Notes under the pieces: model-generated
The model's database searches: none
What the model saw: only the letters and a program-made list of their open reading frames with translations
What the model was told of the DNA's origin: nothing
Program-made: the position numbers and the translations under genes
From: Anaerolineae bacterium
Lineage (GTDB): Bacteria > Chloroflexota > Anaerolineae > Aggregatilineales > Phototrophicaceae
Assembly (NCBI GenBank): GCA_022822545.1
Contig: JAJEBE010000043.1
Location: forward strand, 1 to 64,000
Direction of reading: 5' to 3'
Length of the DNA: 64,000 bases
In this document: one piece after another, positions 716 through 46,421 of the stretch
How the letters are laid out: every line of letters starts with the position of its first letter
How positions within the stretch are numbered: the stretch's first letter is position 1

Positions 716-3445
716 TCAATTGTAGTTATAGGCGTTGGCGGCGTATTCCTTGGCAGTGCCCGCCACCACCGCCAGCGTCATGCCCCGTTCAGCCGCCTGC
801 TTCTTGGCGGAATCCACCTCGCTCTTGAGCCGGAGCAATTCACGGTCATCGGCATCGTAGGTTAACCCGTCATTGACCAGCAATTCAGCGATTGAAGACA
901 AGAGCGTGTTGCGCATCATCAGGCCGACCAAATCGCTGATGACGGCGACGATATCTTTTGCATGCTCTGCTTCATAGGCAACGTGCAACGCTTGCCGATA
1001 GCGGGTCAACGCTTCCGGCAGGCGATTGGCTGCGGTCAAGACCTGGCCCAGCAGGCGCAATTGCTGCGCTTCGGCCGCTCGGTCATGGATTTCCCGCGCA
1101 ATATACAGCGCCGATGTATGAAAGTTGACCGCTTCGCTCCAGCGCTCCATTTGCACATGGACGGCGCCGAGGCCGCGCAATACCTGGCCTTCCATCGCCC
1201 GATTGGATTGCCGCTTGAAGTGATCGTTGGCGCTTTCCAGCATGGTAATCGCCTGCCGCGGGTCGCCGATATCGAGCTGCGCCAAGCCCAGCTTGAAGAG
1301 TATTTGCGCTTCGTTCTGCTGATCATCGCGGTTGCGCGCAATCGTCAACGCCATTTCCAGCGCCTCGACGGCAGTGACGGATTCGCCCAATTCAAGGTGG
1401 GCATCGCCGCGATTGATTTGCAGGAACATTGCCGCTTCCTGATCGCCCAGGTCGGCCGCCAGATGCAAGCCCCGCTGAATGTGGTTGAGCGCGGTCACCG
1501 CGGCGCCTGTCCGCACCAGCAACCCCGCCAGCATATCGAGGCTGGAGAGAATGCCGGCTTTGTCGTCGGTGTCTTCGTGGATTTGCAGGACTTCATTGAA
1601 TGTCGCTACGGCTTCGTCTTCGCGATCGCGATCAATCTGGATTTTGCCGATCGCCTCCAGGATTTCCAGCACGCGCGGCGTATCGTCATGCTGTCGCGCC
1701 AAACTGAGCGCCGTTCGCAATTCGACGCCTTCGATGGCGTTGGGCGGGCTCTCGCTGCTGATGAACAAGCCGGCGAGCAAATCCAGCGTTTCCAGCACGC
1801 CATCTTTGTCGGCTTCGCTTTCGTAGATGTCCAGGACTTCGCCATAAGTGGCGATGGCGTCACCTTCGCGGCCTTGCTTGATCTGCAGCTTGGCGATCGC
1901 TTTGAGGATCTGTAACTGGCGCGCGATTTCGTTGTTTTCGCTCGCTACGTTCAGAGCCGTGCGCAACTGGTCGATGCTGACGGACTGCAATTCGTCATCG
2001 TCGACGGGCATGAAGGTCGCGTCGTCAATTGCGGTGTCCACCGGCTGCGCGATTTCAGTTTCTTGGTCCTCTTCGTCCAGACGGTCAGCCACTGCGACAG
2101 CTTCCGCCTCGGGATCTTCGCCGCCGGCGTCGGGAATGGCTTCCTCGTCGGCTGCGCTTGGCGTCTCGTCGGTTGAGTCTTCAACCTCGTCGAATTCGAG
2201 TGTATCTCCCGCGGCCAGCGCTTGCAGCAGCGCCAGTTCGTAGGCATAGCCGGTTTCAATGACCAGCGCGTCATTTGACGACAAGACCGCTGCGATATCG
2301 ACGGCCAGGGTTGCATCGCCACCCTCCGCTGCCGCAGCGGCGGTCGCCACGATATCGTCCATCTCGATGACCAAGCGCTCCTCGGCGTTGGGTCCGTCGA
2401 GCAAGTCGTTCAAGTGCGCCAGCGTCGCGCTTCCGATCTTTTCTCTCAGCGCATCCAGCTGCTCATTCTCTCGCGCATACGCTTGCAAGTAGTCTTGCAC
2501 GATCGGATGCAGGCGATAGACATCGTGGTCAGCGCGCTGAAAGCCATCGACCAGAAACAAACGCGACAGCACAGTCATGGACTTGTTGACTGCCGCCATG
2601 GGCAGATCTGTGAGTTGGCTCAGAAACGCGCCGGACGCTTCCCCGCGCGCGGTGGCGCCCAGCGTGACCAGCAAGTCTTGCAAGCGGGGATTGAGCGCGC
2701 GGAATCCCGCGTTCAAGGCGGCCGCGCTTCCGTTGCCATCCGCTTCGTCGAACAGCTCCTCCAAGGCGGCGTCGAATTCAGCCGGGGATTGCTGGGCGAC
2801 AATCATGCTGCGAGCCGCCACCACCAGCGGCAAGGCTTCGCCCTCGAAGCGGCCGACGATCGCGTCTATAGCGTCATCGGTCTCGTCGTCCGCTAGGCCC
2901 GCCTTCTGTTTGAAGAGCAGGAGCGCATCTTCAGCCGACAAATTGCCGATGCCTTGATTGCGCCAATCGCCTCCGCCCAAAGCGCGGTCACTGGTCACCA
3001 CCAGCGAGATACCCTGGCAGCAGCGCTCATAGAGTTGGGTCAATACGGATTCCTCGATCGCGCCATCGAGTATGAGCAGCGGATTGCGCCGGCGCAGCAA
3101 TTCGGCGACCGCCGCTGCCTTGCTTAATGGGTTGGCGGCGTTGCAGATATCCTTGTCGCCGTAGGCTCGCCCGATGCGCGCCAGCAGCTCGACCAGCGTG
3201 GGCTGCCGCGCCCCCAGCCACAAGACCGATTGCTCGCCGCGCTGCAGGATGACGTTGGCGATGGTGGCGGCGATGGTGGTCTTGCCGATGCCCGAGACGC
3301 CGTGCAGCACCAGGGGCTGGCTTTGCCGCAAACGAAGCAGCAGCGCCCGCAGGGTGTCGTCCCGCCCGACCGGCCGCCCGAAGCGGCGCAAGGGCAAATC
3401 AGACATCGCGGTGACGGCAGCTTCGAGGGGTTTACGCTCTGCCAT
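716..3445 (-). CDS. STAND-type NTPase with C-terminal TPR repeats
   Basis: A 909-aa protein. The N-terminus has a P-loop GVSGIGKTT at about residues 49-57 and a Walker B-like LLILDGA about 75 residues later, followed by a helical region ending in a winged-helix-like part (LHPIVQDYLQAYA). This is the NB-ARC/STAND layout. An acidic linker rich in D and E (about 410-480) separates it from a C-terminal half of repeated helix pairs typical of tetratricopeptide repeats (for example ALEMALTIARNRDDQQNEA and LGLAQLDIGDPRQAI). STAND proteins act as ligand-triggered switches in signalling, transcription control or phage defence. No effector domain (nuclease, TIR, protease) or DNA-binding domain is visible, so the output is unknown. 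GGGGGAG lies 4 nt before the ATG. It is divergent from tRNA-Lys and looks monocistronic. Confidence 0.85.
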   Translation of the reverse strand: MAERKPLEAAVTAMSDLPLRRFGRPVGRDDTLRALLLRLRQSQPLVLHGVSGIGKTTIAATIANVILQRGEQSVLWLGARQPTLVELLARIGRAYGDKDICNAANPLSKAAAVAELLRRRNPLLILDGAIEESVLTQLYERCCQGISLVVTSDRALGGGDWRNQGIGNLSAEDALLLFKQKAGLADDETDDAIDAIVGRFEGEALPLVVAARSMIVAQQSPAEFDAALEELFDEADGNGSAAALNAGFRALNPRLQDLLVTLGATARGEASGAFLSQLTDLPMAAVNKSMTVLSRLFLVDGFQRADHDVYRLHPIVQDYLQAYARENEQLDALREKIGSATLAHLNDLLDGPNAEERLVIEMDDIVATAAAAAEGGDATLAVDIAAVLSSNDALVIETGYAYELALLQALAAGDTLEFDEVEDSTDETPSAADEEAIPDAGGEDPEAEAVAVADRLDEEDQETEIAQPVDTAIDDATFMPVDDDELQSVSIDQLRTALNVASENNEIARQLQILKAIAKLQIKQGREGDAIATYGEVLDIYESEADKDGVLETLDLLAGLFISSESPPNAIEGVELRTALSLARQHDDTPRVLEILEAIGKIQIDRDREDEAVATFNEVLQIHEDTDDKAGILSSLDMLAGLLVRTGAAVTALNHIQRGLHLAADLGDQEAAMFLQINRGDAHLELGESVTAVEALEMALTIARNRDDQQNEAQILFKLGLAQLDIGDPRQAITMLESANDHFKRQSNRAMEGQVLRGLGAVHVQMERWSEAVNFHTSALYIAREIHDRAAEAQQLRLLGQVLTAANRLPEALTRYRQALHVAYEAEHAKDIVAVISDLVGLMMRNTLLSSIAELLVNDGLTYDADDRELLRLKSEVDSAKKQAAERGMTLAVVAGTAKEYAANAYNYN

Positions 3446-3622
3446 GTCTCCCCCAGGGTGTGGAATATCGCGTCAACGAGCAAGTTCAGCAATAGTATAG
3501 CATTGACGTCAAAATTAGGACAATTGAGCGGGGGCGGTATATTCGCCGCTAACAGCCGTCGCCAATCCCGGTAGCGCGCTTGATTGGGCGCAACGATTCT
3601 GGGCGCGCGAGCCAGCTTTGGC

Positions 3623-3651
3623 TTGAAGAATCGCGCTCCCTTGACTATACT
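3623..3651 (+). promoter_or_regulatory. Sigma70-type promoter of tRNA-Lys
   Basis: TTGAAG (3623-3628), a 17-nt spacer and TATACT (3646-3651) lie 12 nt upstream of the tRNA 5' end, the expected geometry for a stable-RNA promoter. Confidence 0.75.
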
Positions 3652-3663
3652 GCGTGGCTGTTT

Positions 3664-3735
3664 GGGCGCGTGGCGCAATGGCAGCGCAGTTGACTTTTAA
3701 TCAATTGGTTGCAGGTTCGAATCCTGCCGCGCTCA
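3664..3735 (+). tRNA. tRNA-Lys (anticodon TTT)
   Basis: Acceptor arms GGGCGCG/CGCGCTC (one G-U pair), D arm GCGC..GCGC, anticodon stem GTTGA/TCAAT with loop CTTTTAA (anticodon TTT), and T arm GCAGG-TTCGAAT-CCTGC. The discriminator is A and no CCA is encoded. It follows its own promoter. Confidence 0.97.
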
Positions 3736-3808
3736 CTGCCAGATCTGTTCCGTCTCTCGCAATAGCCAGCCTCAGTGCAGCAGGCGTGCGCCGCGTTATA
3801 TAATGGCG

Positions 3809-5488
3809 CTACAGCATGTCCGGGATCCAAGCCAACGGCGCGATGCCCGCGACATCGGTCTTCACATCGATTACGGCCGGACGACCGGCGGCGAAAGCCT
3901 GCTCCAGCGCGGACCCGATCTCGCTCGACTTGCGCACGGTGACGCCGAGGCAGCCCATCGACTCCGCAATCGGCGCGAAGTCCGTATCCTCAAATAGCCA
4001 TAGCTCATCCGAACCAGTTGTCCTTCCGCCATAAACCGCTTCCACACCCGCCTGCTCTTGATTGAGCGAGTGGTTGTTATTGACTACAGTTACCGTATTG
4101 ATGCCACAGCGAAGGGCCGTCTCTAGTTCCGCCAGGTGGTACCAAATGCCGCCATCGCCGGTGAAACAAAGCACAGGGCGGTCCGGCCCCGCGCACTTGG
4201 CGCCAATCGCAGCCGGCAGTCCCCAGCCGAGCGAGCCGGAGCAGCGGATGAATGACTGCTCAGGATGCCGCAAATCAAGCATGGCGCCGGTCCAAATACC
4301 GGAGTGCCCGGTATCGGATACGAGGATCGCGTCCGCTGGCAAATGCTCGCTCAAGGCCTTGCAGAGGCGCTCGGGGCGGATAGGCTCTGCCTCCGAGTTG
4401 TAATGCCTGCCGACATCTTCCCGCCAGGCGCCTATCCGCTCGCCTACCCGCTCAATCCAATCCGTTCGGGCAGGCGCAGTTTTCGCGCTATCCAGCATCT
4501 GCCGCAGCGTGGCGCGCGCGTCCCCCTGCAAACCGACTTCGACCGGATAGTTGCGGCCGATTTCTGCCGGATTGATATCGAGTTGAATGGCGCGGACGCC
4601 CGGCGGCGGAATGGTGTAATTGTTGGTGAGCTGCCCACCAGTATGACTGCCGATATAGAAAACCAAATCCGCTTCACAAAGGATCTGATTGGCGCAAGCG
4701 CGCGAGTAGGAGCCGGGCAAGCCTACGGCCAGCGGATGATCCGCCGGAAACATGGCTTTGGCATTGAGCGCGGTCGCCACCGGAATCGATAATTTTTCCG
4801 CCAGCGCGATAAGCTCGTCGCGGGCATCAGACGTGGTTACGCCGCCGCCGGCGATGATCACCGGGCGCTGCGCTGATTCCAATAGACAAAGTGCAGCAAC
4901 GACTGATTCTTGATCGGCAACCGGACGGAAGGGCGGCAAATTGGCAAATTGGCCTTCGACGATGACCTCCAGGTCCGCCTCGACATCCACCACACGCCCG
5001 CCATCGATGCCCTCCAAGTCCAGGTGCGTCGGCTGTGGCGTGCCGGTGGTGGCGGCGCGAAACGCCTGCCGCAGGTGATGCGACAACTCTTCCGCTTTGG
5101 CGACGTAAGCGCTGTATTTTGTGACCGCGGAGAAGGGAGCATGATGATCCACTTCCTGGTAAGCATGGCGCAATTGACGCGGCTGCTGCTCTCGGCCGGT
5201 GATCGCGACCACCGGCGAGCAAGACAGCCAAGCGTCTTGCAAACCGGCCGCGAGATTGACTGCGCCGACCGACTGCGCCATACACAAACTCGGAGCGCGC
5301 TTGACGCGAGCGTAGGCATCGGCCATGTAAGCGGCGGCTTTCTCGCCGTGCGTCTGCACCCGTTTGATGCCGAGCTTCTCCATCTCCATCAGCGCGCGCG
5401 GAGCAATGTAGGGCATGAAGAATACATGCGATATGCCATAGCCATATACAGTTTCGGCCAGCAGCCTGGCGCCTGTCATCCTGGGCAT
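3809..5488 (-). CDS. Thiamine-pyrophosphate enzyme, acetolactate-synthase-like
   Basis: The start is moved to the internal ATG at 5488 because GGAGG lies 7 nt upstream; the ORF-track start adds 32 unlikely residues. The 559-aa product has the three-domain POX/ALS layout: an N-terminal Pyr domain with the conserved glutamate in THGEKAAAYMADAYAR, a central domain with the GGGV turn, and a C-terminal PP domain with GDGG...NNN, the GDG-x(~27)-NN motif that binds the Mg-TPP diphosphate. Such enzymes decarboxylate 2-oxo acids or join them to aldehydes. The substrate cannot be told from the sequence, and no small regulatory subunit (ilvN) is nearby, which argues against the branched-chain amino acid role. 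It is divergent from the sugar ABC operon and shares a 308-bp intergenic region with it, so a carboligase or lyase in sugar catabolism is plausible (inference). Confidence 0.85.
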   Translation of the reverse strand: MPRMTGARLLAETVYGYGISHVFFMPYIAPRALMEMEKLGIKRVQTHGEKAAAYMADAYARVKRAPSLCMAQSVGAVNLAAGLQDAWLSCSPVVAITGREQQPRQLRHAYQEVDHHAPFSAVTKYSAYVAKAEELSHHLRQAFRAATTGTPQPTHLDLEGIDGGRVVDVEADLEVIVEGQFANLPPFRPVADQESVVAALCLLESAQRPVIIAGGGVTTSDARDELIALAEKLSIPVATALNAKAMFPADHPLAVGLPGSYSRACANQILCEADLVFYIGSHTGGQLTNNYTIPPPGVRAIQLDINPAEIGRNYPVEVGLQGDARATLRQMLDSAKTAPARTDWIERVGERIGAWREDVGRHYNSEAEPIRPERLCKALSEHLPADAILVSDTGHSGIWTGAMLDLRHPEQSFIRCSGSLGWGLPAAIGAKCAGPDRPVLCFTGDGGIWYHLAELETALRCGINTVTVVNNNHSLNQEQAGVEAVYGGRTTGSDELWLFEDTDFAPIAESMGCLGVTVRKSSEIGSALEQAFAAGRPAVIDVKTDVAGIAPLAWIPDML

Positions 5489-5615
5489 ATTGTCTTCCTC
5501 CGCCTGAAACAGAACCGCGCAGAGCATAACGCCTGTAGTAGGCAATTGCCAGGTATCGAATCGGGCGCGCTTTGCGGAAATCATGACCGCTATGCTACAA
5601 TGCTAATCAAATTGC

Positions 5616-5644
5616 TTGACAAATTCGTCCTGCTGCGGTAAAGT
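5616..5644 (+). promoter_or_regulatory. Sigma70-type promoter of sugar ABC operon 1
   Basis: TTGACA (5616-5621), a 17-nt spacer and TAAAGT (5639-5644). It lies in the 308-bp gap between the divergent TPP enzyme and binding-protein genes and points at the latter. An operator-like repeat starts 6 nt after the -10 box. Confidence 0.75.
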
Positions 5645-5650
5645 TGCGCA

Positions 5651-5670
5651 AATCGGGTTAATCGGTTAAC
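5651..5670 (+). promoter_or_regulatory. Operator-like repeat downstream of promoter 1
   Basis: AATCGGGTTAATCGGTTAAC holds two copies of an ATCGG(G)TTAA half-site immediately after the -10 box. It resembles the elements at 24036, 24247 and 32473 but has shorter spacing between halves. The position is what a LacI-family repressor would use. Confidence 0.5.
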
Positions 5671-5796
5671 AGAGTACGCCAATTGTGCTTGATTTAGACG
5701 GCGTTTTCGGTGCTGGCGCAGGCAATTGAGGAGGTGCGCGCGACAAGAGAGAAGTGCTGCATTCGAGTAATTAGTTCATGTCTTGAGGAGAAAACA

Positions 5797-7176
5797 ATGT
5801 CTGAAAAAGAAAAACTTGGAAGAGAACAGATCAGCCGGCGCGACCTGCTGAAGATGCTCGGTAGCAGCGCTGCTGGCGTGAGCCTCGCCAAAGTTGCCGG
5901 ACTCAGCGGCGCGGCGACTGCCTTGTTGCAAGGCATGCCGGCTGGCGCGCAGAGCAAAGTCGAAATCTGGACCGGTTTCGGCCAGGGACGTATGGCTGAC
6001 GCTATGACGAGCGCCATCGAACAATTCGCTGCCGAAAATCCCGGCTTTGCGCCCGAGCATATCATCGTACCCTGGGGCGAGATCACCGATCGCGTGCTCG
6101 CCGCCACCGCCGCTGGCTCCCCGCCCGATGTGCACCGCGGTTGGTCCGGGACCGTTGGCAATGCCGCTATCGGCGCGCTGACCAATTTGCAGCCTTATGT
6201 TGATGCCCAGAATGTCGATCTAGATGATTTCTGGCCCGCTACTCTCAGCCAAATGAAGCACAATGGCGATGTGCACGCGATGAGTATTTCGACGATTGTG
6301 CAGTTCTTGTACTACAACAAAGATCGCATGAGAGAAGCCGGCTTGGATCCCGATAGCCCGCCGAGCACCATTGCCGAATTGGATGAACAAGGCGCGGCGC
6401 TTAACGATGTGGCTGATGACGGAACAATCAATCGGCTTGGGTTCTCCCCGACGGTGCCGGGTCTGCAAATCTGGGACTGGGGCGCTGCTTTCGGCAGCCA
6501 ATACTGGGATGAGTCCGAGGGCAATATCGCCATCGATGAAGAAGCCATGATCGCCTTGTTTGAGTGGTACAAGTCCTACTCCGATGAGTTTGGCGCCGAG
6601 AATTTGCAGGCTTACGCCAGCACCTACGGCGGCAACAACTTCGGTCGCAATACCCCTCAAGGCATCTATTACACCGGCTTGATCACTTTCTGGGTTCTGG
6701 GCAGTTGGTCCTATAACGATATGGGCGAATATGGTCCGGATGTAGATTTCGATGTCGTTCCGATCCCGCAGTTGGAGAGCGCTGATGACTCGACGCCGGG
6801 CACGTCCAACGGCAACATGTACCTGGTGCCGGCCAATTGCGCCAATCCTGATGGCGGCTTTGCCTTCGCCAACTTCATGAGTTCGTCGCCCTTCGTGGCG
6901 ATCAACAAGGCGCTGCCCGACAGTGTCATGCCTTCAAGACGCTCCCTGGCGAACCTGCCGGAAGTGGACGAAAAAGAAGGCGGTTGGACGATCCTGGCGC
7001 GCGACGAAATCCTGCCGAATACCCTGCAACGCCCCAGCTTCGGCGGCAATGGCTTCTTCGGCCGCGCGCTGAGCGAAGGGGCAGAAAATGTCATGTTCCA
7101 CGGCGCTGACCCAGCCACTGTGCTGGCAGACGCTGTCGACCGCTCCCGCCGCGAGGTGGAACGCTTGAGGGGTTAA
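5797..7176 (+). CDS. Sugar ABC transporter substrate-binding protein, TAT-exported
   Basis: The start is set at the ATG at 5797, preceded by GAGGAG, rather than the ORF-track start at 5710. The 459-aa product opens with a twin-arginine signal (SRRDLLKMLG followed by a small/hydrophobic stretch and an AQS cleavage-like site). No lipobox cysteine is present, so it may be released or held otherwise. The mature part is a family-1 (MalE/UgpB-like) extracellular solute-binding protein: an initial beta strand KVEIWTGFG, a YYNKDRMREAGLDPDSPP hinge-region motif, and a WVLGSWSYNDM segment near the C-terminal lobe. It is the first gene of an operon with two permeases. No ATPase gene is nearby, so an MsmX-type shared ATPase is expected elsewhere. 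Confidence 0.92.
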   Translation: MSEKEKLGREQISRRDLLKMLGSSAAGVSLAKVAGLSGAATALLQGMPAGAQSKVEIWTGFGQGRMADAMTSAIEQFAAENPGFAPEHIIVPWGEITDRVLAATAAGSPPDVHRGWSGTVGNAAIGALTNLQPYVDAQNVDLDDFWPATLSQMKHNGDVHAMSISTIVQFLYYNKDRMREAGLDPDSPPSTIAELDEQGAALNDVADDGTINRLGFSPTVPGLQIWDWGAAFGSQYWDESEGNIAIDEEAMIALFEWYKSYSDEFGAENLQAYASTYGGNNFGRNTPQGIYYTGLITFWVLGSWSYNDMGEYGPDVDFDVVPIPQLESADDSTPGTSNGNMYLVPANCANPDGGFAFANFMSSSPFVAINKALPDSVMPSRRSLANLPEVDEKEGGWTILARDEILPNTLQRPSFGGNGFFGRALSEGAENVMFHGADPATVLADAVDRSRREVERLRG

Positions 7177-7193
7177 TCCCCGGAATTGTATGT

Positions 7194-7265
7194 GTAGGGG
7201 CGACTCTGTGAGTCGCCCCTACTTCAATGTTTCGTCATGACCAACGGGCGAGACAAGTCTCGCCC
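7194..7265. repeat. Two adjacent palindromes of a GTAGGGGCGA-type element
   Basis: A 13-bp perfect stem GTAGGGGCGACTC/GAGTCGCCCCTAC (7194-7206, 7210-7222) with a 3-nt loop is followed by GGGCGAGAC-AA-GTCTCGCCC (7246-7265) and CTAC. The two hairpins share the GGGCGA/TCGCCC core. They sit in the 173-bp gap between the binding-protein and permease genes, where a hairpin can stabilise the upstream mRNA or reduce read-through into the permeases. They look like a REP/MITE-type dispersed repeat. Confidence 0.75.
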
Positions 7266-7349
7266 CTACAAGCGTCTACTGCGGTCAGATTGGACAGGCG
7301 CATTGTTGAGCCGGCCGACGCCAAGAACGTTTCGCGTTGAGATGAATCC

Positions 7350-8270
7350 ATGTTCAAACTGAAACGAAATCCTGCCAGCCAACCTAACAGTTGGCGCACC
7401 GACAACCTCCCGGCCTGGGGTCTGTTCTTCGTCATGCCCTGGATCATCGGCTTTCTCGCCTTCACGGTTTATCCCTTCTTCGCCTCCTTATATTTCAGCT
7501 TCACCAACTTCAATATCATCAATTTCAGCCCACGCTGGGTGGGCTTGGACAATTATGTCGAGCTTTTCACCTACGATCCGCTCTTTTGGATTTCCATCGG
7601 CAATTCCATCAAATACGCGGCGCTGCTGCTGGTCTTTGCCACCGTATTCGATATTTTTATCGCCTACCTGCTCAGCTTGAATGTTAAGTTTCTATCGATC
7701 TATCGCACCGTTTTCTTCTTTCCCGTATTGGTGCCAGTGGTGGCGGCCAGCCTGACCTGGATTTGGATCCTCAATCCGCGCTTTGGATTGATCAACGGCT
7801 TGCTGGATTTGATTGGCGTCAAAGGCCCGAATTGGTTGGCATCGCCGGACACCGCGATGTTATCCCTTATTTTCATTGCCGTTTGGGGTAGCGGCCGTCA
7901 GGTGATCGTCTATCTCTCCGGCTTCAATGACATTCCGCGATCCCTGTATGAAGCGGCCGATATTGATGGCGCGTCGGGCTTACAGAAGTTTCGCCGCATC
8001 ACCCTGCCGCTGCTGACCCCGCAGATCTTTTTTAATGTGGTCACGCTCATCATCTTCTCGCTGCAGTCGTTCAGCGAAGTCTACATCATGACAGGCGGCG
8101 GACCCGCCAACTCCACCCTGCTCTACGCCGTAAATCTCTACAACCGCGCCTTTCACGATTTCGCCATGGGCTACGCCTCGGCGCTGGCTTGGATCATGTT
8201 TCTGCTGATTTTGGGTCTGACACTTATCATCTTCAAATTCCTCAGCGGCAAAGTCATCTATGAACGTTAG
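7350..8270 (+). CDS. Sugar ABC transporter permease (MalF/UgpA-like)
   Basis: A 306-aa integral membrane protein with about six hydrophobic segments and the binding-protein-dependent permease signature EAADIDGASGLQKFRRITLP (EAA loop, about residues 203-222) that docks on the ATPase. The first segment begins WGLFFVMPWIIGFLAF. It is separated from the binding-protein gene by 173 bp carrying two palindromes and lies 14 bp before the second permease. It supplies one half of the translocation channel. Confidence 0.92.
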   Translation: MFKLKRNPASQPNSWRTDNLPAWGLFFVMPWIIGFLAFTVYPFFASLYFSFTNFNIINFSPRWVGLDNYVELFTYDPLFWISIGNSIKYAALLLVFATVFDIFIAYLLSLNVKFLSIYRTVFFFPVLVPVVAASLTWIWILNPRFGLINGLLDLIGVKGPNWLASPDTAMLSLIFIAVWGSGRQVIVYLSGFNDIPRSLYEAADIDGASGLQKFRRITLPLLTPQIFFNVVTLIIFSLQSFSEVYIMTGGGPANSTLLYAVNLYNRAFHDFAMGYASALAWIMFLLILGLTLIIFKFLSGKVIYER

Positions 8271-8284
8271 GACGAGACAATAAT

Positions 8285-9175
8285 ATGGCAGTTTTACGAC
8301 CTGCTCTCGCCAACGGACGTACCCTCAGCGATGAAGAGCGAAAGTACTTTCTCGTTCGGCGAGCGAAAACCATCCTCACTCACTCGGTTCTGATCATATT
8401 CGGCATCACCTTCATGCTGCCCTTCGTATGGATGGTCAGCAGTTCGCTCAAGCCCAATGTCGATATCTTCGAGTTGCCGGTGCGCTTGATACCCAAAACC
8501 TATCGCCTCGAGAATTACGTTGACGCCACCAACGCCATCCCCTTCTGGCAATATCTTTGGAATTCCACCTATTACACCGTATTCGCCACCATCGGCTCGG
8601 TGCTTTCCAATACCTTTATCGCCTACGGTTTTTCGCGCGTTCGCTGGCGCGGGCGGAACGTGCTCTTCATTATCGTGATCGCGACGATGATGCTGCCCTT
8701 CCAGGTGCGCATGATCCCGCTCTACGTGCTCTTCGCCAAGCTGGGCTGGCTGAATTCATTCCTGCCGCTGATCGTGCCGAACTTCTTCGGCAACGCCTTC
8801 TATATTTTCCTCATGCGACAGTTCATGATGACCCTTCCGCGAGAGCTTGACGATGCCGCTCGCATTGACGGCGCAAGCGAATGGGGCATCTTCTGGCGCA
8901 TCGCCGTGCCGCTCTCCAAACCCGCAATCCTGACCGTCGCCATCTTCGAGATCATCCACACCTGGCACGACTTCGTCGGTCCGCTGGTCTACTTGCGCCA
9001 CCCGACCAAGTACACCCTGTCCATCGGTTTGCGGCTCTACTTCACGCAGTACGGCGCCGAATGGGGCCTGCTGATGGCGGCGGCAGCCATGTTCACGATA
9101 CCGATGGTGATCTTCTTCTTCTTTGCTCAGCGCTCTTTCATCGAAGGCATTACCCTGACAGGCCTCAAAGGTTAG
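8285..9175 (+). CDS. Sugar ABC transporter permease (MalG/UgpE-like)
   Basis: 296 aa. A cytoplasmic N-tail is followed by a membrane segment (ILTHSVLIIFGITFMLPFVWM), the periplasmic SSLKP motif usual in MalG-type permeases, and the EAA-type loop ELDDAARIDGASEWGIFWRI (about residues 186-205). About six membrane segments are visible. It ends FIEGITLTGLKG, the normal C-terminal GL(K)G of this family. Its stop is only 4 nt from the start of the GroEL-like gene, so the two are probably translated in a coupled way. Confidence 0.92.
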   Translation: MAVLRPALANGRTLSDEERKYFLVRRAKTILTHSVLIIFGITFMLPFVWMVSSSLKPNVDIFELPVRLIPKTYRLENYVDATNAIPFWQYLWNSTYYTVFATIGSVLSNTFIAYGFSRVRWRGRNVLFIIVIATMMLPFQVRMIPLYVLFAKLGWLNSFLPLIVPNFFGNAFYIFLMRQFMMTLPRELDDAARIDGASEWGIFWRIAVPLSKPAILTVAIFEIIHTWHDFVGPLVYLRHPTKYTLSIGLRLYFTQYGAEWGLLMAAAAMFTIPMVIFFFFAQRSFIEGITLTGLKG

Positions 9176-36248: not shown

Positions 36249-37658
36249 ATGACAAAAGAGACCACCCTTTGGAATCGGCTAAGCGCTGAGCAAGACAAAG
36301 ACGCCGCCTATCGCCTTGCGTTGGGCTTCGGCTGCCAATATCTGCAAACTCTGCCTGACCGGCCCGTATTCCCCGCTGCCGAGGCTTTGGCTGCGCTGGC
36401 AGCCTTCGACGAAGCCCTGCCCGAGCGCTCATTGCCGGCGCGGACGGTCCTGTCACAGCTTCACGAGTTGGGCTCGCCAGCGACAACGGCGCAGGGCGGC
36501 GGCCGTTATTTTGGCTTCGTCAACGGCGGCGCGCTGCCGGCCGCGATGGCCGCGCGTCTCCTCGCCGATTTTTGGGATCAAAACGCCGCGCTCGAAGTCA
36601 TGTCGCCCATCGCCGCCAAGCTGGAAGCGGTCTGCGAAGGCTGGCTGGTCGATCTCTTCGCTCTGCCGGCCGGGAGCGCCGCCGGCTTGGTCAGCGGCAC
36701 ATCAACCGCCACACTCTGCGCTTTGCTGGCGGGCCGCAACACGCTGCTGCGCCGCAACGGCTGGGATGTCAACGAGAGAGGAATCTTCGGCGCGCCGAGG
36801 CTGCGCGTAGTGATGAGCGATGCCGCCCATGTCACCGTGCGCAAGGCATTGGCGGTCATCGGCATCGGCGCGGAGCAACTCATAATCGTTCCGGCCGACG
36901 AGCAAGGCCGCTTTGATCCGGGTCAATTGCCCGCCTTGGACGAACGGACCCTGTTGATCTTGCAGGCGGGAAATGTGAACAGCGGCGCATTTGATCCTTT
37001 CGCGCCCCTTTGCGAGGCGGCGCGCTCCGCCGGCGCCTGGGTCCATATCGACGGCGCCTTTGGCTTGTGGGCCCGCGCCTGCCAATCCACAGCGCATCTG
37101 ACCGCCGGCATCGAGGCGGCCGATTCCTGGTCGGTTGACGCCCACAAAACGCTGAACAGCCTCTACGACTGCGGCATCATGCTCTGTCGCGACCGCGGCG
37201 CCTTGGTCAGCGCTCTGCAAGCGAGCGATGCTTATATTCAATTTGGCGACGGGCGCGATGGCATGCTTTACACTTTGGAGATGTCGCGGCGGGCGCGCAG
37301 CGTCGAACTTTGGGCGGCGCTGAAGTCCCTCGGTCGGGCCGGCATTGACGAACTGATCGCGCAACTCTGTCAACGAGCGCGGCAATTCGCGACCGAACTC
37401 CGTGAGCATAACTTTCGCATACTTAACGATGTCACCTTCAATCAAGTACTCGTCGCTTGCGAATCGCCCGAGCAAACCGAAAGCGCGCTTGCCCAGATTC
37501 AAGCCAGCGGCGAGTGCTGGTGCGGCGGCTCGCAGTGGCAAGGCAAGCCGGTCATCCGCATCAGCGTCTGCTCCTGGGCCACCACCGCTGACGACATCAG
37601 TCGATCGGCCGCCACTTTCGTTGCGGCTCGAGATCATGCCCGCGCTTCGCTGGCTTAG
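36249..37658 (+). CDS. Group II PLP-dependent decarboxylase
   Basis: 469 aa if read from the ATG at 36249; ATGs at 36237 and 36201 are possible, but GAGAGG abuts the former and no site precedes the latter. Features are GGRYFGFVNGGALPAAMAA near the N-terminus, GTSTATLCALLAGR for cofactor phosphate contact, HIDGAFGLW with the PLP-stacking/aspartate region, and SVDAHKTLNSLYDCG with the Schiff-base lysine. This is the aromatic-L-amino-acid/glutamate decarboxylase fold type I. The specific amino acid is not decided by visible residues. Its stop overlaps the stop of the convergent DUF4037 gene. Confidence 0.88.
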   Translation: MTKETTLWNRLSAEQDKDAAYRLALGFGCQYLQTLPDRPVFPAAEALAALAAFDEALPERSLPARTVLSQLHELGSPATTAQGGGRYFGFVNGGALPAAMAARLLADFWDQNAALEVMSPIAAKLEAVCEGWLVDLFALPAGSAAGLVSGTSTATLCALLAGRNTLLRRNGWDVNERGIFGAPRLRVVMSDAAHVTVRKALAVIGIGAEQLIIVPADEQGRFDPGQLPALDERTLLILQAGNVNSGAFDPFAPLCEAARSAGAWVHIDGAFGLWARACQSTAHLTAGIEAADSWSVDAHKTLNSLYDCGIMLCRDRGALVSALQASDAYIQFGDGRDGMLYTLEMSRRARSVELWAALKSLGRAGIDELIAQLCQRARQFATELREHNFRILNDVTFNQVLVACESPEQTESALAQIQASGECWCGGSQWQGKPVIRISVCSWATTADDISRSAATFVAARDHARASLA

Positions 37659-40760: not shown

Positions 40761-42134
40761 ATGAGCAGCTGGGTGAATCAACACAAGTTCGGCCTGGTCG
40801 TCGCCAGCGCAATCCTCGCCCGGCTCATCATCCTCCTCGCCTTCCCCGATATCTTCGCCTTTACCGAACTAGCTGTGGAAACTCACGGCTCGGTCGCCTA
40901 CGACGAATACGCCTTGAACCTGCTGGAGACCGGCGTCTACGGCCGTGAGCCGAGCGTCCCCGACGCCGGTTTGCCGCCGCTGTACAGCACTCTGCTGGCT
41001 CTGACTTATAGCATATTCGGACGCCACTACATCGCGGTCGCCGCGGCGCATATCCTCTTTGATACGCTGTCCGTCGCGCTGCTTTATGACATTTGCCGAC
41101 GCCTGTTTATCGAATCCGGCGACACGATCGGCGCGCTGGCCGGATTGTTCTTCGCCCTCTATCCATACCTGATATTCCAGAATCTGACGCTCAACGATAC
41201 CGCCCTGTGGATTCTGCTGCTGCACCTTTTCGTCTGGCTGTTAATCCGCTTGCGCGAGCGCGAAACTCTCGACCGGCATACCCTGTTGATCGCGCTATCA
41301 GCGGGCGCAGTGCTGGGGCTATCCGCCTTGGCGCGGGCATTGCTGCCGCCACTGGCGCTGCTGGCGGTGGTCTGGTTTCGGCTGCACCTGAACTGGCGCG
41401 AGACCCTGCTGCGTCTGTTGCCTGTCGCGGCCGTGAGCATCCTCGTTCTCCTACCATGGGTCGCGCGGGGGCAGCGCATTTACGGCGGCTTCGTGCCCAT
41501 CGCCCTCAACAGCGGCGAAAATATCTATCAGGGCAACAACCCTTGGACGGTCGCGGTCTTTCGCGCCGGTTACGATGCACAGTGGCTGCCGCCGCCTGAA
41601 GCCGCTCCCCTCGATGATCCGCTGGCGCGCAATGCTGCGCTGGCCCAAACCGGCTGGACCTATCTGCGCGAGCACCCGGAGCGCATAGCCGAACTGCTCT
41701 GGGTCAAGCTGGGCGTGTATTGGAATGTAAACGTCACGCCAATCAACAACCTGCGCCAAGGCGAAAAGCTCGCCATCGATGACAATGGCGCGGTCGTCAT
41801 CGTCAGCGGCGAAGGCTCGCACATCGGCGTGACCGCCGCCAACGCCGCCTACCAGGACAACAGCCTATTTAACGTGGTCGGACGTCGCGTCCACGTCGTA
41901 TACTTCGGCGGCTTGTGGCTTCTCGCAGTCGCGGGCGCCTGGTTGAGCCGGCGGCAGTGGCGCGCCTTGAGCTTGCTGGTCTTCGTGCAACTGAGCCAGA
42001 CGGCGATGTACCTGCTCTTCCACCCGTCGACGCGGTACAGGTCGCCGACCGATCCGTTGCTCTTCGTGTTCTCGGCGGTTGCGGTGCTGTGGTTGTTGAG
42101 GTGGTGGCGGGGGCGGCGAAGTCAAACCCTATGA
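40761..42134 (+). CDS. Membrane glycosyltransferase, GT39/ArnT-like
   Basis: 457 aa with about ten hydrophobic segments. After the first segment (FGLVVASAILARLIILLAFP) a non-cytoplasmic loop carries an acidic DEYALNLLETGVYG motif, as in PMT_2/ArnT-type lipid-linked sugar transferases, where the acidic residue is catalytic. PPLYSTLLALTYSIFG and NLTLNDTALWILLLHLFVWLL follow the family pattern. A soluble insertion (about 255-355) holds LNSGENIYQGNNPW. It would move a sugar from a polyprenyl-phosphate donor to a lipid or protein outside the membrane. The acceptor is unknown. It stands alone behind the DAHP synthase terminator. Confidence 0.85.
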   Translation: MSSWVNQHKFGLVVASAILARLIILLAFPDIFAFTELAVETHGSVAYDEYALNLLETGVYGREPSVPDAGLPPLYSTLLALTYSIFGRHYIAVAAAHILFDTLSVALLYDICRRLFIESGDTIGALAGLFFALYPYLIFQNLTLNDTALWILLLHLFVWLLIRLRERETLDRHTLLIALSAGAVLGLSALARALLPPLALLAVVWFRLHLNWRETLLRLLPVAAVSILVLLPWVARGQRIYGGFVPIALNSGENIYQGNNPWTVAVFRAGYDAQWLPPPEAAPLDDPLARNAALAQTGWTYLREHPERIAELLWVKLGVYWNVNVTPINNLRQGEKLAIDDNGAVVIVSGEGSHIGVTAANAAYQDNSLFNVVGRRVHVVYFGGLWLLAVAGAWLSRRQWRALSLLVFVQLSQTAMYLLFHPSTRYRSPTDPLLFVFSAVAVLWLLRWWRGRRSQTL

Positions 42135-42201
42135 GCGTCGCTTGTCAGCCATACAGATTCACAATAAACGCAGTTGCATGGATAGCACTTGTGTTCTAAC
42201 A

Positions 42202-42242: not shown

Positions 42243-43049
42243 ATGAACAGACAGAAGCCACCCAAAGGAATCGAATGGACGCGAATACGCCGGGCTGACG
42301 GCACTGAATTGCCCGGCTACACCTGGAATCCCACGGGTGGTTGCTTCCACGGCTGCACCTGGCAGATGCCCGACGGATCTGTAACCGAGTGCTACGCCAA
42401 GACAATCGCCGAGCGTTTCACTAGTGGCTACCCGAAGGGTTTCGAGCATCACTATTGGAGGCCGCACAGTCTGGACGCGCCGCGAAAGCTGAAAACACCG
42501 GCCGGCATCTTCGTCGGCAGCATGGCTGATCTTTTTGGTCACTGGGTGCCAGAAGAGCAGATTCAGCAAGTGTTGGATGTGATGGAAGAGGCGCACTGGC
42601 ACATATTTCAGACGCTGAGCAAGTTCCCCATCCGGCTGCCAGAATTTAATCCGTTTCCCGAAAATGTGTGGGTGGGTGTGAGTCTGCCGGCCGGGCATCT
42701 GATGAGCGAGACTGGCGGCGCGCGGGCATTGGGCGCTTACCTGCGTCACATGAGGAATATTGAGGCGGAAATCCGCTTTATGAGTATTGAGCCGCTCTGG
42801 TTTGATGTGGCGCCGGTGTTTGAGCAGTGGTTGGAGACTGAGGGCGAGTTGCCGTTTGAGTGGGCGATTATTGGCGCGGCGTCGAATGGACGGCAGATCT
42901 TTCAACCCAAAACGGAATGGACAATATCTTTGCTTGAACTCCTCGAGACTCACGATGTACCGATTTTCTTCAAAGGAAATATGGATCGCGTGATATGGAC
43001 TAGTTGGCGCGATGATTTCCCTATCGCCTCAAACGGATTTCACAACTAG
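42243..43049 (+). CDS. DUF5131 protein (phage Gp37/Gp68-like, three-Cys motif)
   Basis: I prefer the ATG at 42243 (MNRQKPPKGIEWTRIRR), as family members begin close to IEWT; ATGs at 42201 and 42189 would translate through the iterons. No strong ribosome site separates them. The 268-aa product has YTWNPTGGCFHGCTWQMPDGSVTECYAKTIAERF, three cysteines in the C-x3-C-x11-C form of the Gp37/Gp68 family, then IFVGSMADLFGHWVP, HIFQTLSKFP, NVWVGVSLP, FMSIEPLW and WAIIGAASNGR. The cysteines resemble a radical-SAM-like Fe-S site, but chemistry is unproven for the family. The partner gene tcmP is convergent, with the two stop codons sharing CTAG. G+C is lower than in the neighbours, suggesting transfer. 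Confidence 0.85.
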   Translation: MNRQKPPKGIEWTRIRRADGTELPGYTWNPTGGCFHGCTWQMPDGSVTECYAKTIAERFTSGYPKGFEHHYWRPHSLDAPRKLKTPAGIFVGSMADLFGHWVPEEQIQQVLDVMEEAHWHIFQTLSKFPIRLPEFNPFPENVWVGVSLPAGHLMSETGGARALGAYLRHMRNIEAEIRFMSIEPLWFDVAPVFEQWLETEGELPFEWAIIGAASNGRQIFQPKTEWTISLLELLETHDVPIFFKGNMDRVIWTSWRDDFPIASNGFHN

Positions 43050-43906
43050 AGAAGCGGCGGCTGCCGAACCTCTTTAACTGCCCCATTCCAGAACTTTATT
43101 CCCAAGTCATGTTTGCTAGCAAATATCATAGTGTAGACCTGAACATTGCGCTGGTTCCTGAATGGTTTCTCCTGCCTTTCAGTCTGAACGTAACCCATGT
43201 CATTCAAACGACCTAGATAAAAGTCAATCAACTTACGCCTAACCGATGAAGCTCCATCGACGCGAAACCGTTCATACACTGATCGCCACTCGCGAGTGCC
43301 AAAGAATCGGTCAACTACCGTGTCACCTTCATCGCGTGCCGCCATCCCAGCATTGCGTGTGATTCCGCTCGTAGAGAAGTTTACGACAAGATCCATACGG
43401 TTCAGGCTAGCAAGTTTCTCAACCGTCTTCCATTCGACTTCTAAGCCTTCCGGATCTAGAAACGCCAGATTGAGACTAGACCACTTACCAGGCAGGAATT
43501 CTTTGTCCACCTGTTCGATACGCTCAACGATGTTGTCAACGGCAACATTGCAGTCTTTATGAAATAGGTGGGTCCTTGATCCAAGACCACTTTCGAGGGC
43601 TCGTTTCTCAAGCGCGTCAAACTCCGCATCGCCCATCTCAACCAAAAAAACGTTGTGAAACGGAAAGCGCGTAGTCAACGCTAGTAATGGCGACCCTAGC
43701 ATAATATCGCCGCTCGGACTGAACTCATTCTTTCCAGGACCCGCCTGCAAGTCGATATAATTCAGTGTACGCCACTTCTTATCTTTCATTGCTGTTGTGA
43801 ATCGAGCCATGTATCCCTTAAGAATCGTCAACTTGTCCTTCGCATAATCTTGGCTGTCACGCATCGGTAGGCCGTCATGTTCCGGTTTGAGATAACTCGG
43901 CACCAT
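43046..43906 (-). CDS. tcmP: Three-Cys-motif partner protein TcmP
   Basis: 286 aa. The N-terminus LTILKGYMARFTTAM...LNYIDLQAGPGKNEF holds a methyltransferase-like motif I (DLxAGPG) followed by MLGSPLLAL. A second conserved block NLAFLDPEGLEVEWKTVEKLA has the DPxG of the family, and MDLVVNFSTSGITRN follows. A C-terminal segment GYVQTERQEKPFRNQRNVQVYTMIFASKHDLGIKFW completes the usual layout. TcmP proteins are known as regular neighbours of DUF5131 proteins, but their role is not established. AAAGGA lies about 8 nt before the ATG. It is AT-richer than the flanking genes. Here it faces its partner rather than being in the usual same-strand arrangement. Confidence 0.87.
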   Translation of the reverse strand: MVPSYLKPEHDGLPMRDSQDYAKDKLTILKGYMARFTTAMKDKKWRTLNYIDLQAGPGKNEFSPSGDIMLGSPLLALTTRFPFHNVFLVEMGDAEFDALEKRALESGLGSRTHLFHKDCNVAVDNIVERIEQVDKEFLPGKWSSLNLAFLDPEGLEVEWKTVEKLASLNRMDLVVNFSTSGITRNAGMAARDEGDTVVDRFFGTREWRSVYERFRVDGASSVRRKLIDFYLGRLNDMGYVQTERQEKPFRNQRNVQVYTMIFASKHDLGIKFWNGAVKEVRQPPLL

Positions 43907-43964: not shown

Positions 43965-46421
43965 CTACTCCCGATCCGGCGCGAGCAACTCCCAGAACCG
44001 CGAGAGCAGGTAGCGATACTTCAAGCCATGCGACGTCAACACCAGCGTCAACAAGAACAGCGCCGGAATCGCCGCGATCATCAACGAGCCGCGCCCGCCA
44101 TCCCAAACCGGCGGCTTGAACTCGAAGATCGCCCCCTCAAATACCGGATCCACATACATCACCAGGATCGTCAGCGCCGTCAACAGGCTGCTCAGCAGCA
44201 GAATCCGCCGATGCGCCCAGAAGGTGCGCGGCTGATAAATGTCAATGCCCTGCACATGCCAGGTGATCAGCATCCCGTAGAGCGCGACCATGATCGTCAC
44301 CGACGAGCGCGTCATCATGAGGTCGCCGCCGCTGCCGAACCAGGTGATCAGATAGAGCAGCGTAATGCAGACCGCGCCGATGAAACCCATCGTGAATATG
44401 TAATCGACCACATCGCGCCGGAATCGCGACATGAACTGCGGCCGCAGCCAGCCGAAGGCGATCAGAGTGGCGGGCAGGTTGACCGTGCCGAAGGTCGCCC
44501 AGCTGATCTGCACCGGCGTGATCGGAAAGGGCAGCGCCATGAAGGCGATGAAAATGAAGAAGGCGATGCCATAAAAGTTCCGCACCAGGAACATCTTCAT
44601 CGTGCCGAAGATCGTCTGCGTGGTCTCCTTGCCCTCGCGGAAGGCGCGCGGCAGCGTCGACATAGCATTGTTCAGCAAGACGATATCGGCCACGTCCTTG
44701 CTAATCTGCGTGCCGTCATTCATCACGATCGCCAGGTTCGCCGCCTTCAGCGCGGGCACATCGTTGACGCCATCGCCCACCATCGCCACATACTCGCCTT
44801 GCCGCCGCAGCGAATCGACTATCCGCTGTTTGGTATCCGGCTCAATGCGGGCGAAGACATGGCTGTCGCGCACGGCGCTGTCAAATTCGCCCTCGCCCAT
44901 CGCATCCAACTCGGCGCCGGTGTAAGCGCGGCTGCCGATATCCATGCCAGCGCTCTGCGCGATCGCGCGGACCGTCTCCAGGTTGTCGCCCGAGATGACC
45001 TTGAGCGTCAAGTCTTCTTCGCGGAAGGCATCCAGCGTCTCCTGAATATCTACGCGGATCTCATCGCTCATGACGATAAGCGCCAAAGGCTGCGCATCGT
45101 AGGAGACAACGCCCGCGTCCATATCCGGGTCGCCGCTCATCCGCGCGAAAGCCAGCACCCGCATGCCATCTCGCGCCAGCGTTTCCGCATCGTGATACCA
45201 GGCATGATCCGGCGGCAGCAAGCGCTCGGGCGCGCCCAGCAGCAGCGTCCTATCCGCCAGGCAGACGGCCGACCACTTCCGCCCCGAGGTGAAGGGAATC
45301 TCGCGCAGTTTCTGCGGATAGGTCTCGTCGACCACGATGCGGTCGATATAACGCTCAATGGCCTGTGCCGTGTTGTTCAAATGCGCCAGGTTCTTGAGGT
45401 AAATATGAAGCTCGCTGTGAATCTCATCGCTGCCCGTCTCGGCAATTTCGATGATCTCGCGCACGGCCAGCTTGTTCTGCGTCAGCGTGCCAGTCTTGTC
45501 AAAACAGAGCACGGTCGCATTCGCCAGCGATTCGACCGCATTAACGCGCTGAATGAGCGTCTGCTGCATGCTGATTTTGACCGCGCCGATGGTCAGCGAC
45601 AAGATCGCAACCAGCACCAGCCCCTGCGGCACGAGGCTCGTCGTGAATACCACCGCATTACGCACGATCTCGAGGAAGGCATTGTCCAAAAAGAAGCCGG
45701 TCACGAAGATCATCGGCACGAAGACCAACATGATCAGCACCGTGATTTCAACCGTGATGTCGATCTTGATCTGCGTCGGCGTCTTGACCACCTTGTATTG
45801 CTTGGCGAGGACGGACAGTTGATTGATGTGACTGTCCGCGCCGACGGCGGTGGCGCGCATGATGCCGCTGCCAGCGACGCAGAAGGAACCGGACAAGACC
45901 TTGTCATCGGTCGATTTGCTGACCGCGTCCGATTCGCCCGTCAGGTGTGATTCATCCAGCTCCAGCGAATCCGCGCGCGCGACCAGGCCATCGACCACCA
46001 GCCGATCGCCCGGATTGAGGCGGATAATCTCGTCTTTGACCACCTCGCGCATCGGCACGTCGATCCATTGGCCATCGCGCAGGCAAGTCACCGACTGCTC
46101 GGATAGCGCCGCCAGCCGGTCCAGTTGCCGCTTGGCGTTGAATTCCTGGATCATGCCGAAGAAGGTATTGGACACCACGCTGAAACCGGCGAAGAAGGCG
46201 GTGGCGTAATCGCCCAGGGCGATAACGATAATCAGCATGCTGCCCAGCACGATGTTGAAGAGGTTCAGCACATTTTCGCGGAAGATCTGCCAATAGCTGC
46301 GGCCGACGCGGGCTTCGAAGTCATTGCCCTGGCCGCGGCGCTGCCGATCGAGGACTTCCGCCCGGGTCAGTCCAGCGATACGCTCAGTCTGTTCCTGCTG
46401 TCTTGCGATGGCGCTCTGCAT
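43965..46421 (-). CDS. Cation-transporting P-type ATPase
   Basis: 818 aa. The actuator motif LTGESDAVSKS, the phosphorylation site CFDKTGTLTQNKL and the hinge MVGDGVNDVPALKAANLAIVMND are all intact. About ten membrane segments are seen: two pairs before phosphorylation (FRENVLNLFNIVLGSMLIIVIAL; ITVEITVLIMLVFVPMIFVTGFFL with VPQGLVLVA) and a C-terminal six. The M4 motif VPQGL and the lack of an N-terminal CxxC metal-binding domain rule out a copper/zinc P1B pump and fit a P2/P3-like group similar to mycobacterial CtpE. The ion is not certain (Ca2+ is possible). It is monocistronic, divergent from the mannonate dehydratase gene. Confidence 0.92.
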   Translation of the reverse strand: MQSAIARQQEQTERIAGLTRAEVLDRQRRGQGNDFEARVGRSYWQIFRENVLNLFNIVLGSMLIIVIALGDYATAFFAGFSVVSNTFFGMIQEFNAKRQLDRLAALSEQSVTCLRDGQWIDVPMREVVKDEIIRLNPGDRLVVDGLVARADSLELDESHLTGESDAVSKSTDDKVLSGSFCVAGSGIMRATAVGADSHINQLSVLAKQYKVVKTPTQIKIDITVEITVLIMLVFVPMIFVTGFFLDNAFLEIVRNAVVFTTSLVPQGLVLVAILSLTIGAVKISMQQTLIQRVNAVESLANATVLCFDKTGTLTQNKLAVREIIEIAETGSDEIHSELHIYLKNLAHLNNTAQAIERYIDRIVVDETYPQKLREIPFTSGRKWSAVCLADRTLLLGAPERLLPPDHAWYHDAETLARDGMRVLAFARMSGDPDMDAGVVSYDAQPLALIVMSDEIRVDIQETLDAFREEDLTLKVISGDNLETVRAIAQSAGMDIGSRAYTGAELDAMGEGEFDSAVRDSHVFARIEPDTKQRIVDSLRRQGEYVAMVGDGVNDVPALKAANLAIVMNDGTQISKDVADIVLLNNAMSTLPRAFREGKETTQTIFGTMKMFLVRNFYGIAFFIFIAFMALPFPITPVQISWATFGTVNLPATLIAFGWLRPQFMSRFRRDVVDYIFTMGFIGAVCITLLYLITWFGSGGDLMMTRSSVTIMVALYGMLITWHVQGIDIYQPRTFWAHRRILLLSSLLTALTILVMYVDPVFEGAIFEFKPPVWDGGRGSLMIAAIPALFLLTLVLTSHGLKYRYLLSRFWELLAPDRE

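Follow-up and report, generated by a model that had tools for sequence, protein, structure and literature searches.

The gene for a DUF5131 protein (phage Gp37/Gp68 family) is kept at a fixed slot in many genomes of one genus of Anaerolineae, while the gene that meets it tail to tail, coding for a three-Cys-motif partner (TcmP), has been replaced repeatedly by remote types of the same family. We found this pair in a stretch of 64,000 nucleotides from an Anaerolineae bacterium, called the window throughout. On balance we favor, with some reserve, the reading that the two genes form an exchangeable nucleic-acid-modifying module of the PDC-M41/M30 kind, with a constant DUF5131 and a variable TcmP, which would act against phages or other mobile elements; this reading is built on sequence comparison and predicted structures. 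PADLOC already lists such a pair as an unvalidated defence candidate. What is new, to our knowledge within the literature searched, is the clade-specific cysteine motif and the exchange of a variable beside a constant gene at fixed slots. DUF5131 and TcmP occur widely, in bacteria as well as on plasmids and in phages, and the retention of DUF5131 during the swap of remote TcmP types tells the general half of the pair from the specific half. The features discussed are collected in Table 1.

Table 1. Positions of the DUF5131/TcmP pair, its motifs and the genes bordering the slot in the window.
Feature	Position	Strand	Remarks and evidence
PMT_2-type glycosyltransferase (GT) gene, left border of slot	40761..42134	+	PF13231; kept at slot in related genomes
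DUF5131 (phage Gp37/Gp68 family) gene	42243..43049	+	268 aa; PF07505, PADLOC PDC-M41B, AlphaFold2 model
Three-Cys motif C34-x3-C38-x11-C50	42342..42392	+	Rearranged spacing typical of clade; aligned relatives
CTAG common to both TAG stops, 4-bp convergent overlap	43046..43049	.	Sequence
TcmP (three-Cys-motif partner) gene, type A1	43046..43906	-	286 aa; TIGR04474, PADLOC PDC-M41A
TcmP motif IV, D151-P-E-G	43445..43456	-	D151 invariant, P152 and G154 nearly invariant
TcmP SAM-binding motif I, D52-LQAGPG	43733..43753	-	D52, G56, G58 invariant in 31 TcmP
P-type (E1-E2) ATPase gene, right border of slot	43965..46421	-	PF00122; blastn breakpoints

A Convergent Pair of AT-Rich Genes

Both proteins score well above the cut-offs of their families, DUF5131 against PF07505 (E=4.5e-32, 111.9 bits, gathering cut-off 28.9) and TcmP against TIGR04474 (E=1.4e-44, 153 bits, curated cut-off 53); the definitions of these families carry no function. 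No further match to either family was found genome-wide. The DUF5131 reading frame opens with TTG at 42189; the conserved start is the ATG at 42243 (MNRQK...), and the stop is the TAG at 43047-43049. TcmP runs on the minus strand from an ATG at 43906 to a TAG at 43046-43048. These coordinates confirm the original prediction of a convergent pair with both stops inside one CTAG. The same prediction held both genes to be AT-richer than their flanks, and indeed the GC content is 54.8% in DUF5131 and 48.4% in TcmP compared to 56-64% in the neighboring genes. GC3 follows the same order (0.65 and 0.52, neighbors 0.68-0.82), and TcmP is lowest by both measures. Mean GC3 values were 0.49 for TcmP, 0.67 for DUF5131 and 0.80 for the ATPase. 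A scan for promoters found none, and a scan for terminators gave 7 where 2.0 were expected, none of them at the DUF5131/TcmP junction.

TcmP Is Exchanged Beside a Constant DUF5131

The gene order GT, DUF5131, convergent TcmP, P-type ATPase, uxuA and MFS is common to many genomes of the genus. DUF5131 proteins encoded at this slot are 67-90% identical. The TcmP proteins belong to five types, namely A1 (window, L062, L071, L074, L077), A2 (L073), B1 (L063, L064, L065, L068), B2 (L066, L067, L069, L070) and C (L075, L076). Identity is 49-90% within the types and between them mostly 19-30% or not alignable, with A1 and A2 at 47-49%. DUF5131 does not co-diverge with TcmP, and sister genomes can carry unlike TcmP types (A2 in L073 and C in L075; B2 in L070 and A1 in L071). 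When the slot content was placed on a tree of the ATPase and GT, at least 12 changes were counted among 21 genomes, or 7 if TcmP types alone are considered. The slot alleles are thus natural partner swaps, and a constant DUF5131 with swapped TcmP argues against a simple protein-binding antitoxin.

In the three breakpoint contrasts (L073 versus L075, L070 versus L071 and the window versus L065), blastn homology ends about 25-70 bp ahead of the DUF5131 stop. There is none in TcmP, and it starts again at the 3' end or stop codon of the ATPase gene. L067 and L069 are 89% identical at the nucleotide level in TcmP, compared to 79% in DUF5131 and 76% in GT, and therefore TcmP has moved apart from its neighbors. 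The sequences come mostly from metagenome-assembled genomes. A second slot (L080, L082, L085), where flanks are 81-94% and DUF5131 88-93% identical and TcmP only 21-27%, is an independent replicate of the swap and consequently makes assembly error unlikely.

TcmP types are not the only occupants of the slot. An FRG-domain gene (PF08867; PADLOC candidate PDC-S15) takes the place of the pair in three sister genomes (G283, G273, G289). The ATPase of G283 is 95% identical to that of the window, with the FRG gene in the slot, and G289 retains a remnant of 24 residues of the DUF5131 start. In L095 and G279, DUF5131 is broken and TcmP is missing. Hence, candidate defence genes and decayed remains take turns in the slot. 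A mobile two-gene module had been proposed for the pair; the content of the slot is indeed exchanged, as a whole only occasionally, but within the genus DUF5131 is fixed at the slot and it is mainly TcmP that is exchanged. Several slot loci also encode probable secreted repeat proteins between GT and DUF5131, with a repeat like DNCCQxxRxCxxxxxWxxGWxDYxxGQC (L068:5643-6713 and 7086-7763; L069:5650-6384 and 6494-7750; L064:4403-5203). The one repeat protein searched against Pfam (L068:7086-7760) had no match.

Predicted Folds of DUF5131 and TcmP

The window DUF5131 carries Cys34, Cys38 and Cys50. The motif segment has three cysteines, no more and no fewer, in 70/70 aligned relatives, so that the cysteines noted in the original prediction are conserved, and their loss in relatives, which would have refuted it, was not found. 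The spacing is C-x3-C-x11-C in 44 of these relatives, C-x6-C-x2-C in 25 and C-x3-C-x6-C in one. Canonical DUF5131 has the C-x6-C-x2-C form; the curated PF07505 definition does not include the spacing, and the 3/11 form of the window clade is a variant. The 3/11 form makes up one side of a branch with SH-aLRT 98 in a quick tree from which the motif columns were left out, and this clade is mainly found in Chloroflexota. An AlphaFold2 model (pLDDT 93.9) gave spore photoproduct lyase (SPL) as its closest PDB match in Foldseek, with a probability of 1.00, a modest E of 1.8e-3 and a TM of about 0.5. Both proteins have a three-Cys motif, but they share 7-9% identity and differ in cysteine spacing, and a sequence-profile search gave no SPL match for DUF5131. 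The model and the cysteines are consistent with a radical-SAM-type TIM barrel enzyme, which would coordinate a 4Fe-4S cluster and bind SAM; the motif that does so in the radical SAM superfamily is CX3CX2C or a variant of it. No useful match came from PDB searches with single protein sequences.

DUF5131 has weak similarity (E 1.2e-8) to Radical SAM mobile pair A, of the TIGR04471/TIGR04470 pair. We rejected this identity, as the score is 34.7 bits against an equivalog cut-off of 355 and the gene beside DUF5131 does not code for another radical SAM protein. A C-terminal tail of DUF5131 that co-varies with the TcmP type was considered as well; there was no clear match, and each of the two tail forms is found with A1 as well as with B1.

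The AlphaFold2 model of TcmP (pLDDT 92.6) has the 23S rRNA A2030 N6-methyltransferase RlmJ as its closest PDB match (E 4.7e-7, probability 1.00), and Trm1 also scores high. RlmJ likewise tops a profile-sequence search with TcmP, weakly (E 0.028). A pattern search found motif I (DxxAGxG) in 15/16 slot TcmP, and motif IV (DPxG) likewise in 15/16. A predicted Rossmann-like fold together with the glycine-rich motif I puts TcmP among the class I SAM methyltransferase-like proteins, with a predicted RlmJ-like fold. Motif IV of N6-adenine methyltransferases is DPPY, or (D/N)PP(Y/F/W). TcmP differs from RlmJ in having DPxG at this place, DPEG in the window, and by an identity of about 12%. Since TcmP lacks the classical catalytic motif of N6-adenine enzymes, its catalysis is not assured; we do not claim TcmP as an m6A enzyme. 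The nucleic-acid-modifying role first suggested for the pair fits the predicted SPL-like and RlmJ-like folds, which hint at the modified nucleosides that may be involved.

A Proposed Module of a Constant Enzyme and Exchangeable Partners

The TcmP partners of one DUF5131 lineage are highly divergent, and a finely matched protein-protein interface therefore seems unlikely. If so, the target of DUF5131 is probably a chemical entity that these partners have in common, either a mark made by TcmP or the substrate of TcmP. We suppose that the constant radical-SAM-type DUF5131 and the exchangeable class I methyltransferase-like TcmP act on the same nucleic acid, with RNA more likely than DNA judging from the RlmJ/Trm1-like predicted fold. 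TcmP would select the target, and DUF5131 would supply the chemistry that all TcmP types have in common; this chemistry may either remove the mark set by TcmP or modify it further. The pair would protect against phages. A bolder version of this module is put forward tentatively: a single SPL-like radical-SAM enzyme might serve many unrelated methyltransferase-like partners through their common chemical product. Recombination at the tail-to-tail junction would swap the partner in cassette form, and phages that have only the constant enzyme might use it as an antidote or to modify themselves.

Linkage and Occurrence of the Two Families

Class-wide, TcmP was found in 33 of 249 genomes and DUF5131 adjoins it in 29/33, which exceeds chance. 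A scan of genome contigs using the family alignment gave 80 loci. In viral contigs, DUF5131 adjoins TcmP in 74/76 loci (48 convergent), and the remaining two lie near contig ends. Thus the expectation that the families recur together, and with it conserved linkage in other genomes, was borne out across bacteria and viral contigs. One genome (G216) even encodes a natural DUF5131-TcmP fusion of 534 aa (L033:634-2238, minus strand). DUF5131 does occur alone. Nine viral contigs (L142-L150) have a DUF5131 of the window clade and no recognizable TcmP, and two chromosomal solo genes (L091:7986-11160; L108:7887-8771) have surroundings that look prophage-like, the former adjoined by DnaB-like, helicase and DNA methyltransferase genes.

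Since TcmP is hardly ever alone and viruses carry DUF5131 alone, an eraser or antidote version is worth considering. TcmP would here put a damaging methyl mark on essential RNA or DNA, being freed or triggered by infection, and the SPL-like DUF5131 would reverse or neutralize the mark. DUF5131 would act on the product and not on TcmP, so that one DUF5131 could serve many unrelated TcmP types, in agreement with the absence of co-divergence. The nearest structural match, SPL, works by direct reversal (PMC3742179). Among annotated phages 121 records match DUF5131 and 5 match TcmP, as expected if DUF5131 were the safe half or a possible phage antidote, but these counts come from single-sequence tblastn, which is less sensitive for the fast-evolving TcmP. 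Moreover, the two loci that lost TcmP and have a broken DUF5131 are equally expected of any two-part system. We regard a toxin and antidote of this type as unlikely.

Context and Candidate Defence Systems

The defence reading starts from PADLOC, where DUF5131 matches PDC-M41B (2e-34) and TcmP matches PDC-M41A (1.6e-23); PDC-M41A/M41B rank best and PDC-M30A/M30B second. The two systems are related, and both consist of an adjacent TcmP-like A and DUF5131-like B component, and both window genes match. The window clade differs from them by its rearranged cysteine motif and its fixed convergent layout, and the exchange of M41-like and M30-like TcmP types beside one DUF5131 lineage makes the border between these PADLOC classes less sharp. 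PDC systems are putative, and most of them are unvalidated (PMC12988326). A literature search on the function of DUF5131 or TcmP gave only passing mentions and found no phage, toxicity or enzyme assay.

On pSymA of Sinorhizobium meliloti 1021 (L278), a TcmP gene adjoins the Hna defence gene, with a second TcmP and DUF5131 close by. The TcmP SMa2243 is raised by NolR, as is hna (PMC12445080). Within L278, positions 3394-9055 hold a large gene (hna by position) and a short TcmP gene, converging on a long TcmP gene and DUF5131; two TcmP types thus stand beside one DUF5131.

The immediate neighbors of the window pair are housekeeping genes. Elsewhere in the Chloroflexota clade, about 5/102 proteins encoded by the two genes on each side of the pair match PADLOC at 1e-10 (a raw count), and other phyla have somewhat more such matches among the neighbors, again in raw counts. 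The evidence for a defence-island context in Chloroflexota is therefore weak. The defensive role given in the original prediction agrees with the PADLOC candidate listing, the slot swap with the FRG candidate and the Hna neighbor in S. meliloti, but the housekeeping neighbors of the window pair and the few PADLOC neighbors in Chloroflexota count against it.

The housekeeping neighborhood of the window and the RlmJ-like fold of TcmP would also suit a housekeeping or stress-related pair for modification of tRNA or rRNA, in which variation at the slot would be an adaptation of RNA modification and not defence. Some phage annotations, moreover, label DUF5131 an RNA methyltransferase; we set aside such labels from mycobacteriophages, for which the basis of the annotation is unstated. 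Against a housekeeping function speaks the patchy presence of the families (33 class genomes for TcmP and 54 for DUF5131, out of 249), as do the repeated replacement at a slot common to the FRG candidate defence gene, the low GC of TcmP and the presence on phages and plasmids. We consider this reading improbable and retain the exchangeable anti-phage module as the preferred one.

The Tail-to-Tail Junction

Across the class, 20 of the 29 adjoining pairs have the order TcmP>DUF5131, 7 are convergent and 2 are DUF5131>TcmP. A comparison of orientation across genomes had been suggested. Within the clade of the window the layout is convergent in 43/43 loci with a visible partner, 32 of them overlapping (-4 to -59 bp) and 11 gapped (2-39 bp), but all three arrangements are found in loci outside it (L112-L141; 13 DUF5131>TcmP, 8 convergent, 4 TcmP>DUF5131).

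The overlap itself is not special to the pair. Two of the 8 convergent junctions in the window, by a simple gene call, overlap by exactly 4 bp, the other being the TTAG at 37655-37658 between a Pyridoxal_deC (pyridoxal-dependent decarboxylase) and a DUF4037 gene about 5 kb away. On related contigs, excluding the DUF5131/TcmP pair, 27/60 convergent junctions overlap and 10/60 do so by exactly 4 bp. The CTAG overlap is ordinary background in this clade. Antisense control, in which overlapping 3' ends would let both transcripts regulate each other, had been proposed from the tail-to-tail layout; despite the strict convergence in the window clade we dismiss it as highly implausible, because 4-bp convergent overlaps are common there, the junction in relatives may overlap by as much as 59 bp or leave a gap of up to 39 bp, and outside the clade the genes are often co-directional. 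We prefer to see in the convergent layout the border of a cassette, where recombination between DUF5131 and the ATPase gene, both conserved, would change TcmP alone.

One locus (L094:4568-7506) has a tandem of two unlike TcmP genes, of 296 and 380 aa, after a single DUF5131 gene, and each of the two is convergent to it.
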